Shown: piece by piece, positions 8,911-31,744 of the stretch
Layout of the letters: the number at the start of each line of letters is the position of its first letter
Position numbering within the stretch: position 1 is the first letter of the stretch
From: an uncultured Pelagibacteraceae bacterium
Lineage (GTDB): Bacteria; Pseudomonadota; Alphaproteobacteria; Pelagibacterales; Pelagibacteraceae
Length of the DNA: 46,601 bases
Assembly (NCBI GenBank): GCA_902600635.1
Contig: CACKKE010000003.1
Location: 1 to 46,601 of the forward strand
Direction: 5' to 3'
Notes under the pieces: generated by a model
The model's database searches: none
What the model saw: the letters and a program-made list of their open reading frames with translations, nothing else
Told to the model about the DNA's origin: nothing
Translations under genes and position numbers: made by a program

Positions 8911-9336
8911 ATGAACACAGTACTTTTAGCTGTTATTTTAATCCCAATTATAGAGATTTACCTCTTTATAAAGATCGGGTCTCAAATAGGCGCTTTCAGT
9001 ACTATATTTTTAGTATTTTTTACTGCAGTTGTAGGAGTCTACTATGCCAGATACGAAGGGATTAACACCTTAAGATCTGGAATGATGCAAATAATTAAAA
9101 ATCAAATTCCAGCCCACGAATTAATTTCTGGTGCTGCAATAGCATTTGCGGCCGTTCTGTTAATCATACCAGGATTTGCAACTGACTTGATTGGTTTCCT
9201 CTTAATCGTCCCAATAACACGAAAGTTAATATTAGGAAGATTTAACAAAAAATTTGAAAATAAAGAGACAAAAAAGAGTGATTTTATTGAAGGAGAATTT
9301 GAAGATATAGAAGATGACAATGACAGAAAAATTTAA
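8911..9336 (+). CDS. fxsA: FxsA family membrane protein
   Basis: IPIIEIYLFIKIGSQIGAFSTI...LLIIPGFATDLIGFLLIVP. Confidence 0.88.
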   Translation: MNTVLLAVILIPIIEIYLFIKIGSQIGAFSTIFLVFFTAVVGVYYARYEGINTLRSGMMQIIKNQIPAHELISGAAIAFAAVLLIIPGFATDLIGFLLIVPITRKLILGRFNKKFENKETKKSDFIEGEFEDIEDDNDRKI

Positions 9337-9742
9337 AATTCTAGCAAAATACATAAAAGATATGTCAAGTGAAACACCTGATGTTGAAACTTACATATCT
9401 GCAGGAAATAACATGGGTAAATATCAATTAGATATAGATATCAAATCAATAGCACTTAAAAATAAAATGATTGAGGTTAATATAACATTAAAATTTCAAC
9501 ATAAAGACCCTCAAGTCAAAAAATCTCATTTTGAGATTGTTTACGCAGTAGCAGTAAAAATCGATGAGTCCATTAAAGAAAAAAAAGATCTAGAAAAAAT
9601 TGTTCTATGTGATGTACCTAATTCAGTTTATCCAGATTTAGAAAAATCATTTCTAGATATGATGCATAATTCTGGATACCCTAATCTCAAATTAGAAAAA
9701 AAAATTGATTTTACAAAGCTTTATTTAGAAAGATTTAATTAA
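9314..9742 (+). CDS. secB: Protein-export chaperone SecB
   Basis: YIKDMSSETP near N-terminus, LFPYARE-equivalent VYPDLEKSFLDMMHNSGYPNLKLEKKIDFTKLY; located in the conserved ppsR-maf-aroE-coaE-dnaQ-secB order. Confidence 0.87.
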   Translation: MTMTEKFKILAKYIKDMSSETPDVETYISAGNNMGKYQLDIDIKSIALKNKMIEVNITLKFQHKDPQVKKSHFEIVYAVAVKIDESIKEKKDLEKIVLCDVPNSVYPDLEKSFLDMMHNSGYPNLKLEKKIDFTKLYLERFN

Positions 9743-11758: not shown

Positions 11759-12339
11759 TTATATTTATCTAAATATTTTTTAATTTTTTCAATTGGAAGT
11801 CCCATTATTGTATTTTCGTTACCATCAATACTTGAGAATAAATCTCTTCCCTGGCCTTCTATTTGATAAACATTATAAGCATATAACGCCTCATCCGAAA
11901 TTTTTACTAAATAATTTTTTAGCTCTTCTTCTGTCATTTTTTTCATTGTCAGTGATGCTTTATCAGTATGGTTCCATACCATAGATCCATTTTTAGAGAT
12001 ACATACTGAGCTTATTAAATGATGTTTTTTACCATTAAGTTTTTTTAAAATATCTAAAGCTTCATTTCTATCGTTGGGTTTTGATATTAGTTCTCCTTCT
12101 AAATCAATTACACTATCAGCACCCAAAACTAAATCATCAACATATTTATTACTTACTTTGTTAGCTTTTAATTCAGCTAAATTTTTTGATATGATTTCTG
12201 GTGAAGCTTTTTCTTTTAATAAACTTAATTTCACAATATCTTCATCGACATTTGATGGTTTTACTTCATTAAAAATATCATTTTCGTCCAGTATTTTTTT
12301 TCTAACCTTGCTTTTGGAAGCTAGAATAATTTTAAGCAT
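11755..12339 (-). CDS. maf: Maf-like nucleoside triphosphate pyrophosphatase
   Basis: ILASKSKVRKKIL, LGADSVIDLEG, GQGRDLFSSIDGNENTIMGLPI. Confidence 0.95.
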   Translation of the reverse strand: MLKIILASKSKVRKKILDENDIFNEVKPSNVDEDIVKLSLLKEKASPEIISKNLAELKANKVSNKYVDDLVLGADSVIDLEGELISKPNDRNEALDILKKLNGKKHHLISSVCISKNGSMVWNHTDKASLTMKKMTEEELKNYLVKISDEALYAYNVYQIEGQGRDLFSSIDGNENTIMGLPIEKIKKYLDKYK

Positions 12340-13156
12340 TTTCTTTATATATCTCGTATATTTTAATTACTGAAGCTGCAGTTTCTTCTACAGATTTTCG
12401 TGTAACATCGATGAATGGCCATTTATATTTTTTGAAAGTATTTCTTGCCATATCTACTTCTTTCTTGATTTGCTCTAGATCTGTATAAAGTTTATTTTTG
12501 TTTTCCTTAAGAGAGTTCATTCTATTTTTCCTAATCTCTACAAGCCTTTCTGGCTCAGTATTTAATCCTATAATGCATGAGATTTTAGGGTTTTCTTTTA
12601 AAGCTTCTGGTAAAGAATTTTCATTTATCAAAGGTATATTGGATGTTTTAAACCCTTTGTTAGCTAAAAAGATTGCGGTTGGGGTCTTACTTGTTCTGCT
12701 TACCCCCAACAAAATTATATCAGATTCTTTTATTTCTTTTACAAGATTACCGTCATCATGGTTCATTGTAAATTGAATTGCTTCGATCCTTTTATAATAT
12801 TCTTCATCAAGAGCGTATTGTCCACTTGGTTGGTGTGAAGCTTTTTGATTTAAAAGTTTTGAAAAACTCAATATTAGATCACCTAACACCCCAAAGCATG
12901 GAATTTTTTTCGTGTCACTATTTTTTGCAAGATATTTTGCTAGATTACTATCAACAATGGAGTATAGAATTATTGAGTTTTTTTCTTTTTCTGCACTTTC
13001 TAAAATTTTTATAATTTGATTTTCTGTTCTGGTAAAAGAATAAGTGTGTATTTTATAATTTATATTTTTAAATTGAGCTTTGATGGCTATAAAAATACGA
13101 TCAAGAGTTTCACCAGTTGCATCTGATATAAGATAAATTTGATATAAGTTACTCAT
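12332..13156 (-). CDS. ppsR: Pyruvate,phosphate dikinase/PEP synthase regulatory protein (kinase-pyrophosphorylase, DUF299; RP001-like)
   Basis: LISDATGETLDRIF, DIILLGVSRTSKTPTAIFLANKGFKTSNIPLI, WPFIDVTRKSVEETAASVIKIY. Confidence 0.95.
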   Translation of the reverse strand: MSNLYQIYLISDATGETLDRIFIAIKAQFKNINYKIHTYSFTRTENQIIKILESAEKEKNSIILYSIVDSNLAKYLAKNSDTKKIPCFGVLGDLILSFSKLLNQKASHQPSGQYALDEEYYKRIEAIQFTMNHDDGNLVKEIKESDIILLGVSRTSKTPTAIFLANKGFKTSNIPLINENSLPEALKENPKISCIIGLNTEPERLVEIRKNRMNSLKENKNKLYTDLEQIKKEVDMARNTFKKYKWPFIDVTRKSVEETAASVIKIYEIYKENA

Positions 13157-13164
13157 GTATAATT

Positions 13165-13173
13165 TGTGTATAA
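13165..13173 (-). promoter_or_regulatory. DnaA box TTATACACA
   Basis: + strand TGTGTATAA; perfect match to TTATNCACA on the minus strand. Confidence 0.75.
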
Positions 13174-13240
13174 ATTTGTACTATTTTTATCATATTGAAC
13201 ATTTTCCATTTTTTAAAATTTTTGGTGTAAAACAATGCTT

Positions 13241-13249
13241 TTATTAACA
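13241..13249 (+). promoter_or_regulatory. Weak candidate DnaA box TTATTAACA
   Basis: One mismatch to TTATNCACA, inside the candidate origin. Confidence 0.35.
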
Positions 13250-13355
13250 AAATTAAACATGTTAAAATCTCCAGTAATCACTTGGCGTATTTAGTTAATA
13301 AGCTTCAATTTTGCGTATATATTTATTAAAATTTAAATTCTAAATGTTAACAAAC

Positions 13356-13364
13356 TGTTTATAA
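13356..13364 (-). promoter_or_regulatory. Weak candidate DnaA box TTATAAACA
   Basis: + strand TGTTTATAA; one mismatch to TTATNCACA on the minus strand. Confidence 0.38.
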
Positions 13365-13388
13365 AATGTTCAATAAATTTAATCACCA

Positions 13389-13397
13389 TTATTCACA
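13389..13397 (+). promoter_or_regulatory. DnaA box TTATTCACA
   Basis: Perfect match to TTATNCACA. Confidence 0.75.
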
Positions 13398-13438
13398 GAA
13401 TATACTAACATTACAATTAATTATATTTAATTATTAAT

Positions 13439-14440
13439 ATGTCTCCAATCGAAGAAGTAATAATAAACAAGAAAAGTGATATTAATCCTATTTGGATAAT
13501 GAGACAAGCTGGTAGATATTTACCAGAATTTAGAGAAATAAGAAAACAAAATCCTGATTTTATAAAATTATGTCTTAACGAAAAATTATCAAGTGAGATC
13601 ACTTTACAACCCTTGAGAAGATTTGATTTGGATGCAGCAATAATTTTTTCTGATATCTTAATGTTACCATATGGCTTAAATCAAATTGTTGAATTTAAAA
13701 AAAATGTAGGCCCATTACTTGGTAACTTAGACTTAAAAGAAATTTCGAATATTAAAGAAGTTGAATTTGTAGAAAGACTATCTCCTGTTTACGAATTAAT
13801 TAATCTAGTTAGTAATTCTCAATTTACTAAAAATAAAACTACTATAGGATTTGTTGGGGCACCGTGGACTTTATTAGTTTATATGATAAATAAAAAATCT
13901 CCAAAATTAAGCTTGAATGAAAATTTTTTTGAAGACAAATATTTAATTGATAAAGTTTTTAAGATTTTAGATAAATTTTTAAAAATACACATTAAAAATC
14001 AGGTAGATAATGGTGCTCAGGTAATTCAAATTTTTGATAGTTGGGCTGGTTTGTTAAAAGAAAAAGATTTACCTCATTACATTTATGACCCCACCTTAAG
14101 TTTGGTTAATTACACTAAATCTTTAAATGTGCCTGTTATCTGCTTTCCAAGAGGTATTAGAAATTACAAAGATTATTGTGAAATTATTAAACCAGACACA
14201 ATTTGCATTGATTATGAGGTTGATCCAGTAAAAATTAATAAAGAAATAAACATTCCTGTTCAAGGTGGAATGGACCCAAAGGTTTTGCTTTCTAACAAAG
14301 AAAATTTAAAAAAAGAAACAACGAAATATTTAGATATATTTAAAGATCATCCATATATATTTAATTTAGGGCATGGCGTTCTTCCAGAAACGGACCCTAA
14401 TATGATGGATTATTTAGTAAAAACTGTAAAAGATTATTAA
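13439..14440 (+). CDS. hemE: Uroporphyrinogen decarboxylase
   Basis: PIWIMRQAGRYLPEFRE, FVGAPWTLLVYM, FNLGHGVLPETDPNMM. Confidence 0.98.
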   Translation: MSPIEEVIINKKSDINPIWIMRQAGRYLPEFREIRKQNPDFIKLCLNEKLSSEITLQPLRRFDLDAAIIFSDILMLPYGLNQIVEFKKNVGPLLGNLDLKEISNIKEVEFVERLSPVYELINLVSNSQFTKNKTTIGFVGAPWTLLVYMINKKSPKLSLNENFFEDKYLIDKVFKILDKFLKIHIKNQVDNGAQVIQIFDSWAGLLKEKDLPHYIYDPTLSLVNYTKSLNVPVICFPRGIRNYKDYCEIIKPDTICIDYEVDPVKINKEINIPVQGGMDPKVLLSNKENLKKETTKYLDIFKDHPYIFNLGHGVLPETDPNMMDYLVKTVKDY

Positions 14441-15941: not shown

Positions 15942-17210
15942 ATGAACATACAAGAATTAAAACTTAAATCATCAGAACAACTTATTACACAAGCAGAGGA
16001 GCTTGGTATTGAAAATGCCAGCACATTAAGAAAACAGGAAATTCTCTTTGCAATTCTTAAAAAGGTTGCTGAAAAAGAGGAAATTACAGGTGCAGGAGTT
16101 TTACAATTGCTTCAAGATGGATTTGGTTTTTTAAGAGCGATGGAGTCAAACTACCTTCCTGGTCCTGACGATATTTACGTCAGTCCAAGTCAAATAAGAA
16201 AATTCGGTTTAAGAACTGGAGATACTGTTGAGGGCCCTGTAAGAGCTCCTAAAGAAGGTGAAAGATATTTTGCTTTATTACAAGTCAGTAAAATAAATTT
16301 TGAGGAACCCGATAAATCTAGACACAAAATAGCGTTTGATAACCTAACTCCTTTGTATCCAGATAAACAATTAGTTATGGAAGTTGAGGCCACAAAGCCA
16401 GATAAAAAACAAGATTTAACACCGAGATTGATAGATCTTGTTAGCCCAATTGGAAAAGGTCAAAGATCGATAATTATTTCTCCACCTAAAGCAGGAAAGA
16501 CTATGATTTTACAAAGTATTGCAAACTCAATTGCTAAAAATTATCCAGAGTGTTATCTGATAGTATTATTGATTGATGAACGTCCAGAAGAAGTAACGGA
16601 TATGCAAAGAACCGTCAAAGGTGAGGTTATTAGTTCAACTTTTGATGAGCCTGCACAAAGACACGTTGCAGTAGCTGAAATGGTAATAGAAAAGGCCAAA
16701 AGACTTACTGAACATAAGAAGGATGTGGTGATACTACTAGACTCAATAACAAGACTAGGTAGAGCTTATAATGCTGTAATACCAAGCTCGGGAAAGGTTT
16801 TAACTGGCGGTGTAGATGCTAACGCACTCCAAAGACCCAAAAGATTTTTTGGTGCCGCAAGAAATATAGAGGAAGGCGGATCTTTAACTATCATATCTAC
16901 GGCTTTGATAGACACTGGAAGTAGAATGGATGAAGTAATTTTTGAGGAATTTAAGGGAACTGGAAATAGTGAAACCGTGTTAGATAGAAAAATCGCAGAT
17001 AAAAGGATTTATCCCGCTATTGATATAACAAAATCAGGCACTAGAAGAGAAGAATTGTTATTTGATAAAAATGATCTTCAAAAGATGAATGTTTTAAGAA
17101 GAATAATCGCTCCCATGGGAACAATGGATGCAATAGAGTTTATTAGTTCAAAGTTAAAAGATACTAAAAACAACTCTGATTTCTTTAATTCAATGAACAA
17201 ACCTAGCTAA
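15942..17210 (+). CDS. rho: Transcription termination factor Rho
   Basis: [63 protein letters not shown]. Confidence 0.99.
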
Positions 17211-18054
17211 TTTGAAGATAACCAAGTTCTTTTAATTCATTATTAAGCTCAGATTCCAATTCTTTCTGAATGTCTTTTGGTAGTGTCTTTTGCCAATCAT
17301 TGCTGGGTCCTTTGTTAAAGAATCTTACTTTTTCTCTTTTTCCTTTAACAAAAACGTTCTCTGTAAAATCTCCATTATCTTCAATTTTTTTTAAAGCTTC
17401 AAAGGAAGTTGATTTTATAACATTTTCTTTTTTGGTATCAGAAACCTCGAAATCAATGAAATTTTTAAGAAATGCAATAATTTTATCAATTTCTTGATGT
17501 ATATTATTTACTAAGTCCTCGTATTTAATAATTAACAAATTTTCATTATCTTTTGTCCAAAAATTATAATGTTCTTTCCATGAGCCAAGATATGTGATTA
17601 CGTTCCCACCTCTCAATTCAATTTCTTTACCAGGAGAAAGGATTTTTGATGTGAGAAGAAACTTTTTGGAATCTTCAATGGATTTACTGAAGTGATTTGA
17701 TATGGAGTCAATAAGATTTCTAGGATCTCTAACAATGTAAATCGTAGCTCGTGTACATTCTTTATTTGTAAAATGATAATTATCAACTTTACAATTTAAA
17801 TGGTGTGTTTTGAAAAATTTTATTTTTTTATCTAAGTTAATTCTTTCTTGAGATGTAATCCAATGCTTTTTGATTTCGTGAATATTATTATAATCTTGAG
17901 TAAAATATTCAAAAAAACGTCTTTGTGGATATTGATCAATTTTTTTTATGCTAGGAAAATCAAATTTTCCATCTTCTGAATAGATTAGAGATGAAATTAT
18001 AGACCTGACCCATGTATTTCCGCTCTTCGGATATGATGCTACCCAAATAATCAT
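17203..18054 (-). CDS. Sulfotransferase-domain protein (copy 1)
   Basis: PAPS-binding 5'-PSB-like [12 protein letters not shown] and 3'-PB-like [21 protein letters not shown]-terminal [14 protein letters not shown]. Confidence 0.9.
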
Positions 18055-21413: not shown

Positions 21414-22060
21414 TGGATAACTTAATTTTAAATTCTTATTCTAAAATTTCCAATTTAAATGTTTCACGTGAAACTTGTAATGAGCTTGAGAGCTTAATTA
21501 CGATGATACAGGAAAAAAATCAGAAAATTAATATTATCAGTAAAAGAATGTATGAAAAAGAGGAAATAAGAGAGCGCCACATAATTGATTCTGCACAAAT
21601 TATTGATTTTGTTGATTTAAATTGCAATACAACCTCAGATTTAGGTACAGGGGGTGGAATGCCCGGATTAATAGTGGCCATAGTAATGAAAAAAATTAAA
21701 AACGATCTGAAAGTAAATCTTTATGAAAAAAGCTACCACAAATGTGCTTTCCTAAGAGAAGTTTCAAAAAAATTAAATTTAAATACAGAAATAATTCAGA
21801 AAGATATTTTTTCACTTAAAAATATTGAAACAGGAACAATTATGTCCAGGGCGTTTAAGCCAATGCCTGTGATTTTAAACTTGGTTAATGAAAATTTTAA
21901 AAAATATAAAAATATTATTTTTTTTATGGGAAGTAGTGGAAGAAAAATTCTTAATGAAACACTTCAAGAGTGGGACCTAGATTATGTAGAAAAAAAAAGT
22001 TTAACAAGCAACGACTCGTTTATATTAAATATTAAAAAAATTAAAAAAAAGATTTCATGA
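21413..22060 (+). CDS. rsmG: 16S rRNA (guanine-N7) methyltransferase RsmG
   Basis: SDLGTGGGMPGLIVAI; follows mnmG; N-terminus contains NVSRETC encoded by parS. Confidence 0.95.
   Translation: MDNLILNSYSKISNLNVSRETCNELESLITMIQEKNQKINIISKRMYEKEEIRERHIIDSAQIIDFVDLNCNTTSDLGTGGGMPGLIVAIVMKKIKNDLKVNLYEKSYHKCAFLREVSKKLNLNTEIIQKDIFSLKNIETGTIMSRAFKPMPVILNLVNENFKKYKNIIFFMGSSGRKILNETLQEWDLDYVEKKSLTSNDSFILNIKKIKKKIS
21460..21475. promoter_or_regulatory. parS: parS centromere-like site TGTTTCACGTGAAACT
   Basis: Perfect 14-bp palindromic core GTTTCACGTGAAAC (21461-21474), 15/16 to TGTTTCACGTGAAACA; within rsmG just upstream of parAB. Confidence 0.93.
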
Positions 22061-28295: not shown

Positions 28296-28496
28296 TTTTT
28301 AAAGTTTAAATTAGTTATTAACACAAAATACTATCTTTAATATTAGAATATATTTCATTTAAAAATGACGTTTTTAAGGGCTAAAAGTGATGTAAAAATA
28401 CAACACTCCGATAAATTATTGCTCAAATATGTAATAATTCCTAAGAAATTAGTAATTATTTGCTAATTGTTACCCTGTTTATAATTAATTATAAAA

Positions 28497-28502
28497 AAGG
28501 AG
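28497..28502 (+). promoter_or_regulatory. Strong Shine-Dalgarno (AAGGAG) for the porin gene
   Basis: AAGGAG 7 nt before ATG at 28510; possible -10 TATAAT at 28480-28485. Confidence 0.7.
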
Positions 28503-28509
28503 TAAATTT

Positions 28510-31180: not shown

Positions 31181-31744
31181 ATGATCTCTCGAATTTTAAT
31201 AATATATGAATATCAAATTTTATACCAAATATTAAACGAAATAAGCGAAAGTTTAAATTTTGAGATTACCCAATTTAACAGCAAGGATTTAAAAGAATTA
31301 AAGGATGATCCTAAAAATAATTATTTGATCGTTTCAAAAAAAAAAATTGAGGGAATTAAAAATAGTTTGATCCTGGAAAATGTACCAATTAAATTTGAAA
31401 AGCTTATTGAAATTATAAATATAAAGTTTTTAAAAAATAAATTTTTAGATCAATCAAACATAAAGATAGGAGAGTATGATTTAGATTTGAATTCGAGAAA
31501 AATTTCACTTGGAGATAAAGGTTTAAATCTAACTGAAAGAGAAACAAATTTAATAATCTTTATCAAAGATGAAAAAAATGTAACGATTAAAGAATTACAA
31601 AAAATGGTTTGGGATTATTCACCAGATCTAGAAACACATACTGTTGAAACACATATTTATAGATTAAGGAAGAAAATGAAAGAAACTTTTGGAGATGAAA
31701 ATTTTATATTAAACACTAGTAATGGTTATTCTATAGATCAGTGA
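31181..31744 (+). CDS. OmpR-type winged-helix regulator with degenerate receiver-like N-terminus
   Basis: C-terminal Trans_reg_C: LNLTERETNLIIFI...ELQKMVWDYSPDLETHTVETHIYRLRKKM...ILNTSNGYSI; N-terminus lacks recognisable phospho-acceptor pattern. Confidence 0.85.
   Translation: MISRILIIYEYQILYQILNEISESLNFEITQFNSKDLKELKDDPKNNYLIVSKKKIEGIKNSLILENVPIKFEKLIEIINIKFLKNKFLDQSNIKIGEYDLDLNSRKISLGDKGLNLTERETNLIIFIKDEKNVTIKELQKMVWDYSPDLETHTVETHIYRLRKKMKETFGDENFILNTSNGYSIDQ

Follow-up and report, generated by a model that had tools for sequence, protein, structure and literature searches.

The ppsR–hemE intergenic region as the probable replication origin of a SAR11 bacterium

The 282-bp intergenic region between the divergent genes ppsR and hemE of a SAR11 bacterium is, judging from its sequence and from that of its relatives, very probably the one place at which the cell starts to replicate its chromosome (oriC), an origin of the hemE/COG1806 kind. 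The support that we computed consists of a conserved array of DnaA boxes, the genome-wide uniqueness of this array, the AT-richness of the region, its position in the GC skew and its proximity to parS. Experiments place the origin of Caulobacter in the hemE/COG1806 gap, and the same location has been proposed for Rickettsia (PMC1914354). An earlier reading of the same DNA, made from the letters alone, had described this address in agreement with that source; its proposal of an origin is supported here by the conserved five-box array, the skew trough and the nearness of parS. The location as such was expected, and the new details are the relaxed profile of the boxes, the absent CtrA sites and an element of period three.

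SAR11 bacteria are among the most abundant cell groups in the ocean. Metagenomic growth estimates based on the peak-to-trough ratio gain from a correct origin; one such tool, described in PMC7852909, assigns dnaA-carrying fragments to the origin, and the alignments of a recent paper on SAR11 genomes begin at dnaA (PMC12421898), which here lies about 60 kb from the gap. According to a study of SAR11 read depth (PMC9589681), coverage is V-shaped, with a single origin and a single terminus. We found no description of a SAR11 origin at the level of sequence in the open literature; predicted-origin databases lay outside this search, and a prediction for an isolate may well exist. A defined, conserved origin of 282 bp would provide a starting point for replication control in a lineage reported to be without CtrA and CcrM, and could possibly be useful for replicating SAR11 plasmids.

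The ppsR–hemE gap and its gene setting

The window, that is, the whole stretch of 46,601 nucleotides that was analysed, is contig C3 of a 706-kb genome that is 60% complete. Its PpsR is up to 99% identical to those of the nearest named relatives, which are Pelagibacteraceae (SAR11) single-cell genomes. The features are given below by position in the window.

12332–13156, minus strand: ppsR, PF03618 kinase/pyrophosphorylase (E=4e-88; DUF299/COG1806), the RP001 homologue
13157–13438, no strand: putative oriC, the divergent ppsR–hemE intergenic region, 282 bp, 82% AT, kept across relatives
13165–13173, minus strand: putative DnaA box L, TTATACACA, with TTATTAACA in many relatives (alignment of relatives)
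13226–13234, no strand: conserved TGTAAAACA, identical in 66 of 95 sequences
13241–13249, plus strand: putative DnaA box M1, TTATTAACA (so in 72 of 95; variants TTATCAACA and TTATTCACA)
13295–13312, no strand: conserved core TTAATAAGCTTCAATTTT, best 9-base windows 0.90–0.96 conserved, AAGCTTCAA in 67 of 95
13345–13353, minus strand: putative DnaA box M2, TTGTTAACA in the window and TTATTAACA in 56 of 95
13356–13364, minus strand: putative DnaA box M3, TTATAAACA (alignment of relatives)
13389–13397, plus strand: putative DnaA box R, TTATTCACA, terminal TTCACA nearly invariant
13399–13438, no strand: candidate DNA-unwinding element, the least stable 40 bp of the gap (stability; A's spaced by 3 nt)
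13439–14440, plus strand: hemE, uroporphyrinogen decarboxylase (PF01208, E=2e-81)
21460–21475, no strand: parS TGTTTCACGTGAAACT, inside rsmG and just upstream of parAB, the only near-perfect parS in this incomplete genome
22057–23693, plus strand: parA and parB (family search)

The gap has the position and the gene pair that the sequence-only reading gave it, with ppsR on the minus strand, hemE on the plus strand and 282 bp between them, and it is indeed very AT-rich, with 81.6% AT against 70.5% for the whole window; within the contig, 0.3% of windows of the same size are equally AT-rich. The AT content of the gap, 82–85%, compares with a genome average of about 71%. Downstream of hemE follow hemH, a hemJ-like gene (UPF0093), rho, a sulfotransferase gene on the opposite strand, mnmE, mnmG, rsmG, parA and parB, the names of rho, mnmE and mnmG being assigned from the sequence and not by family search. 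The statement that the gene blocks on each side run outward holds for the immediate blocks and has exceptions at 8911–9742 (plus strand) and 17203–18054 (minus strand). The latter interval is the sulfotransferase gene (PF00685), which runs against the strand of the otherwise co-directional block from hemE to parB.

We read 110 ppsR loci, from the relatives and the window, and hemE is divergent and at the same place in all 110 (loci L074 and L101 are counted as hemE-bearing, as their tblastn match merely begins late). In the 93 unique copies, the gap is 266–283 bp long, with a median of 282, and its GC content is 13–19%. On average, the commonest base of an alignment column has a frequency of 0.81 in the gap, as opposed to 0.55 at the fourfold-degenerate sites of the flanking ppsR and hemE genes of the same loci, which served as the control, and this difference implies strong purifying selection on the gap. 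Part of the conservation could come from the divergent promoters. ppsR was found in six genera of the family to which the window belongs. The order has another family, whose listed genomes all lack a ppsR match, and the origin neighbourhood may therefore be rearranged there.

An array of five putative DnaA boxes of relaxed form

In the alignment used for box counts (95 sequences, two complete relatives included), five 9-mers of the form TTATNMACA are fixed in position and orientation, namely L on the minus, M1 on the plus, M2 and M3 on the minus and R on the plus strand. Their pooled profile is T(.91) T(.93) A(.89) T(.96) N M A(.99) C(.97) A(.90), and most of the variation falls at positions 5 and 6, the same two positions at which TTATTAACA departs from TTATCCACA. 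Position 6 is A in 69%, C in 30% and T in only 0.6% of the pooled boxes; that it holds nearly only A or C, and that position 8 is C in 97%, within DNA of 82% AT, is the mark of a protein site. The proportion with A at position 6 is 91–97% in M1, M2 and M3 and about 60% (63%) in L, whereas 99% of the copies of box R have C there, and 51 of the 95 are exactly TTATTCACA. Among relatives, sites switch between TTATTAACA and TTATACACA at L and between TTATTAACA and TTATTCACA at M1. All five boxes are within one mismatch of TTATNMACA in 59 of the 95 sequences and four are in 30 more, so that 89 keep at least four of the five, at conserved positions; conservation of the boxes among relatives, which the earlier reading had named as a check on its proposal, is thus borne out. 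The strongly conserved TTAATAAGCTTCAATTTT and TGTAAAACA inside the putative origin match neither the DnaA nor the CtrA nor the IHF consensus.

The 46.6 kb of the window contain only four TTWTNCACA sites, and boxes L and R are two of these. In Markov sequence of the same composition, the probability of at least two TTWTNCACA is 0.007 and that of at least two TTATNCACA, of which strict form the gap in the window has two, is 0.0005; for at least four TTATWMACA it is 1.5e-4, this motif having been picked after the sites were seen. The sequence-only reading had called the two edge boxes perfect, which is exact for TTATNCACA, while each is one mismatch away from TTATCCACA; its two inner one-mismatch boxes, TTATTAACA at 13241–13249 (plus) and TTATAAACA at 13356–13364 (minus), are as it stated, and its count of four has to be raised by a site that it overlooked at 13345–13353 (minus). 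A strict TTATNCACA box is absent from 31 of the 95 putative origins, and searches with the strict motif would consequently overlook many SAR11 origins. The SAR11 dnaA product is full-length, aligns along its length to solved DnaA structures and has the RDHTT recognition motif of domain IV intact, so that a drastic shift in box specificity is not indicated. Another divergent gap in the window, of 214 bp (28296–28509), flanked by a DUF3576 gene and by the gene of a porin that is highly variable among relatives, carries a pair of TTATWMACA from 28315.

As had been stated from the letters alone, the gap has no canonical CtrA site (TTAA-N7-TTAA), and its two sites of the loose form TTWW-N7-TTWW are at the level of chance. 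Control by CtrA is not expected because SAR11 is reported to be without it: ctrA is given as missing in Pelagibacter (PMC2877005), and SAR11 is also given as an exception lacking CcrM (PMC3973325, where the source sentence is garbled). We did not treat CtrA sites as defining for hemE/COG1806 origins, as some published members are without them; those of E. ruminantium and of one Wolbachia strain are among these (PMC1914354). The IHF motif WATCAN5WTR does not occur in the window and is found nowhere in 62 of the 95 sequences, an absence that says little since the motif is short and degenerate; genes of the HU/IHF family are present. About 17.7 kb from the putative origin (31181–31744, plus strand), the window encodes a protein of 187 aa that has the DNA-binding domain of response regulators (PF00486) but no recognisable receiver domain and is possibly a degenerate OmpR/CtrA-type regulator, with scores well below the family cut-offs. 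PF00486 matches lie at a similar distance from the origin in the two complete relatives (1244375 in G012 and 927917 in G082).

Position in the chromosome and alternative explanations

The complete relatives used were the single-contig genomes G012 (1.343 Mb) and G082 (1.438 Mb). In both, the gap is the sole 282-bp stretch with at least three TTATWMACA (three in G012 and four in G082, at most two elsewhere). Since TTATWMACA was derived from this alignment, the test gives uniqueness and not independent discovery, and with the strict motif alone the gap is not outstanding in either genome. Cumulative GC skew puts the gap in a flat bottom, with only 1.2% (G012) and 0.8% (G082) of positions lower, and the skew maxima, at 616 kb and 159 kb, respectively, are 48% of the chromosome away and hence nearly opposite. 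The exact minimum lies about 30 kb to the hemE side of the gap in both genomes. When gene orientation is removed, the fit to third-position GC skew (GC3) gives an offset of −42 kb in G012 (95% −54 to +99) and of −6 kb in G082 (95% −12 to +57), with an R2 of 0.02–0.05, i.e., a weak replication-linked skew that takes up 2–5% of the variance. Given the distance of the minimum and the weakness of the signal, skew alone places the origin only to tens of kb. It is consistent with an origin at the gap, if coarsely, and the GC-skew test suggested by the sequence-only reading came out in its favour, as the gap is in the cumulative trough, at a skew transition, of both complete relatives and the orientation-corrected fit includes it. 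The replication signal in third-position T/A skew was too small to place an origin, and the region opposite the gap was searched for a dif site by which to fix the terminus, but nothing better than background turned up.

A marker of origin proximity that is independent of the boxes is parS. G000, G012 and G082 each have a single copy of its core GTTTCACGTGAAAC, and in 79 of the 79 genomes with parS and ppsR on one contig a perfect core lies to the hemE side, at 7.4–12.0 kb from the start of ppsR. The spread of this distance suggests variable gene content in between.

One could suppose that the true origin is elsewhere in the skew trough, either beside dnaA, where the alignments of the SAR11 genome paper begin (PMC12421898), or at the skew minimum of G012 and G082, which is about 30 kb from the gap in the direction of hemE. 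However, neither these places nor any other in the two genomes has a cluster of at least three boxes, and around dnaA, which is 63 kb (G012) and 61 kb (G082) from the gap, there is no strict box either; with an orientation-corrected fit that includes the gap and parS only 7.4–12 kb from it, an origin at another site is extremely improbable. It could also be that the gap does no more than provide the divergent promoters of ppsR and hemE, its conservation reflecting transcription signals and its boxes being due to chance or to DnaA acting as a transcription factor. A strongly conserved TATACT 33 bp before the hemE start would fit such a role, as would six sigma-70-like sites in the region, although shuffled sequences have as many (mean 5.4). 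Yet the fixed length of 282 bp and the five boxes exceed the needs of two promoters, the box array is the densest in the two complete genomes, the gap is within the skew trough and close to parS, and the gene address is the one that the Caulobacter origin occupies, all of which makes a promoter function alone very unlikely. Among the observations that run counter to an origin in the gap are the displacement of the skew minimum by about 30 kb, the weakness of the replication-linked skew, the 31 of 95 sequences with no strict box, the negative dif search and, in G082, the position of the least stable 40 bp, which lie at the ppsR end, whereas in the window and G012 they are at the end between box R and hemE.

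The hemE end, proposed initiation and comparison with known origins

In 79 of 90 relatives, exactly 41 bp separate the end of box R from the start codon of hemE. On the plus strand after box R, G is nearly absent, and A has frequencies of 1.00, 1.00, 0.99, 0.99, 0.98 and 0.90 at +7, +10, +13, +16, +19 and +22, while the intervening bases mostly vary. A permutation test of this period of three gave a P of about 0.01–0.02, and the signal is thus suggestive only. Coding was considered as its source and rejected, as two of the frames would put the invariant base at the third or the first position of the codons and the other frame is interrupted by a stop. The strand on which a basal unwinding system would be expected has the triplets 3'-TAT GAT TNT NAT GWT RRT-5'. 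The published rule for DnaA-trios asks for three or more 3'-NAN-5' triplets no farther than 16 bp from a DnaA box (PMC8287927); in the window, four of the six triplets from +5 fit 3'-NAN-5', with no three consecutive, and relatives vary at +12 and +18. The conserved TATACT occupies +4 to +9 and could be the hemE −10. We regard it as an even call whether the A's spaced by three represent this −10 and the initial transcribed sequence instead of DnaA-trios, an alternative that concerns the sub-element only. The resemblance of TATACT to TATAAT and the incomplete fit of the triplets favour it, but the A's run on to +22, past a −10 hexamer, an open frame does not explain them (in-frame TAA at 13406), and they follow a DnaA box on its 3′ side where the DNA is least stable, as would suit an unwinding element.

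If the gap is the origin, DnaA would bind the ordered array of five TTATN(A/C)ACA boxes (L−, M1+, M2−, M3−, R+), those with A at position 6 presumably more weakly, and the rightmost box R, which mostly matches TTATNCACA, would anchor a DnaA filament. This filament may melt the very AT-rich 40 bp from box R to the hemE start codon, where the helicase would be loaded and from where forks would depart both ways, and the nearby parS–ParAB system would segregate the new origins. Control would probably be exerted through DnaA, not CtrA. We suggest only tentatively, and with somewhat more doubt than belief, that these features form a lineage-specific SAR11 design with a fixed set of five relaxed boxes (TTATNMACA, mostly A at position 6), no canonical box in about one third of lineages, a period-three unwinding element read unlike the known DnaA-trio, and loss of control by CtrA and CcrM, in which case initiation would be set by DnaA alone.

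As in the basal unwinding system with DnaA-trios, known from Bacillus subtilis and others (PMC8287927, PMC10721633), the element of period three is 3′ of a DnaA box and in the expected orientation, and one SAR11 triplet, the second (+8 to +10), is 3'-GAT-5' when read on the expected strand (PMC10721633). Unlike in DnaA-trios, the invariant base is the T of the triplet (A on the plus strand) and not the central A. With the Cori of Caulobacter crescentus the SAR11 gap shares the flanking gene pair, an AT content above that of the genome and the number of boxes, five being reported for Cori (PMC1914354) and five conserved in SAR11. It differs in length (282 as against 404 bp), in being without TTAA-N7-TTAA sites and in having boxes with mostly A at position 6. 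The earlier description of a minimal origin with few boxes is therefore apt for the length, since the origins of Caulobacter and Wolbachia have roughly 400 bp, but not for the boxes, which equal the count of Caulobacter and exceed the three of Wolbachia (PMC1914354). The published analysis of the Rickettsia lineage also uses CtrA and IHF sites, both of which are at chance frequency in the window; of the features considered in PMC1914354, the flanking genes, the DnaA sites and the AT content are all found here, whereas CtrA and IHF sites do not exceed chance. The proposed origin of Rickettsia prowazekii, between RP_885 (hemE) and RP_001, is longer, with 384 bp as against 282 bp, and resembles the SAR11 gap in its flanking genes, in its AT content of about 82% and in belonging to an AT-rich reduced genome (PMC1914354).
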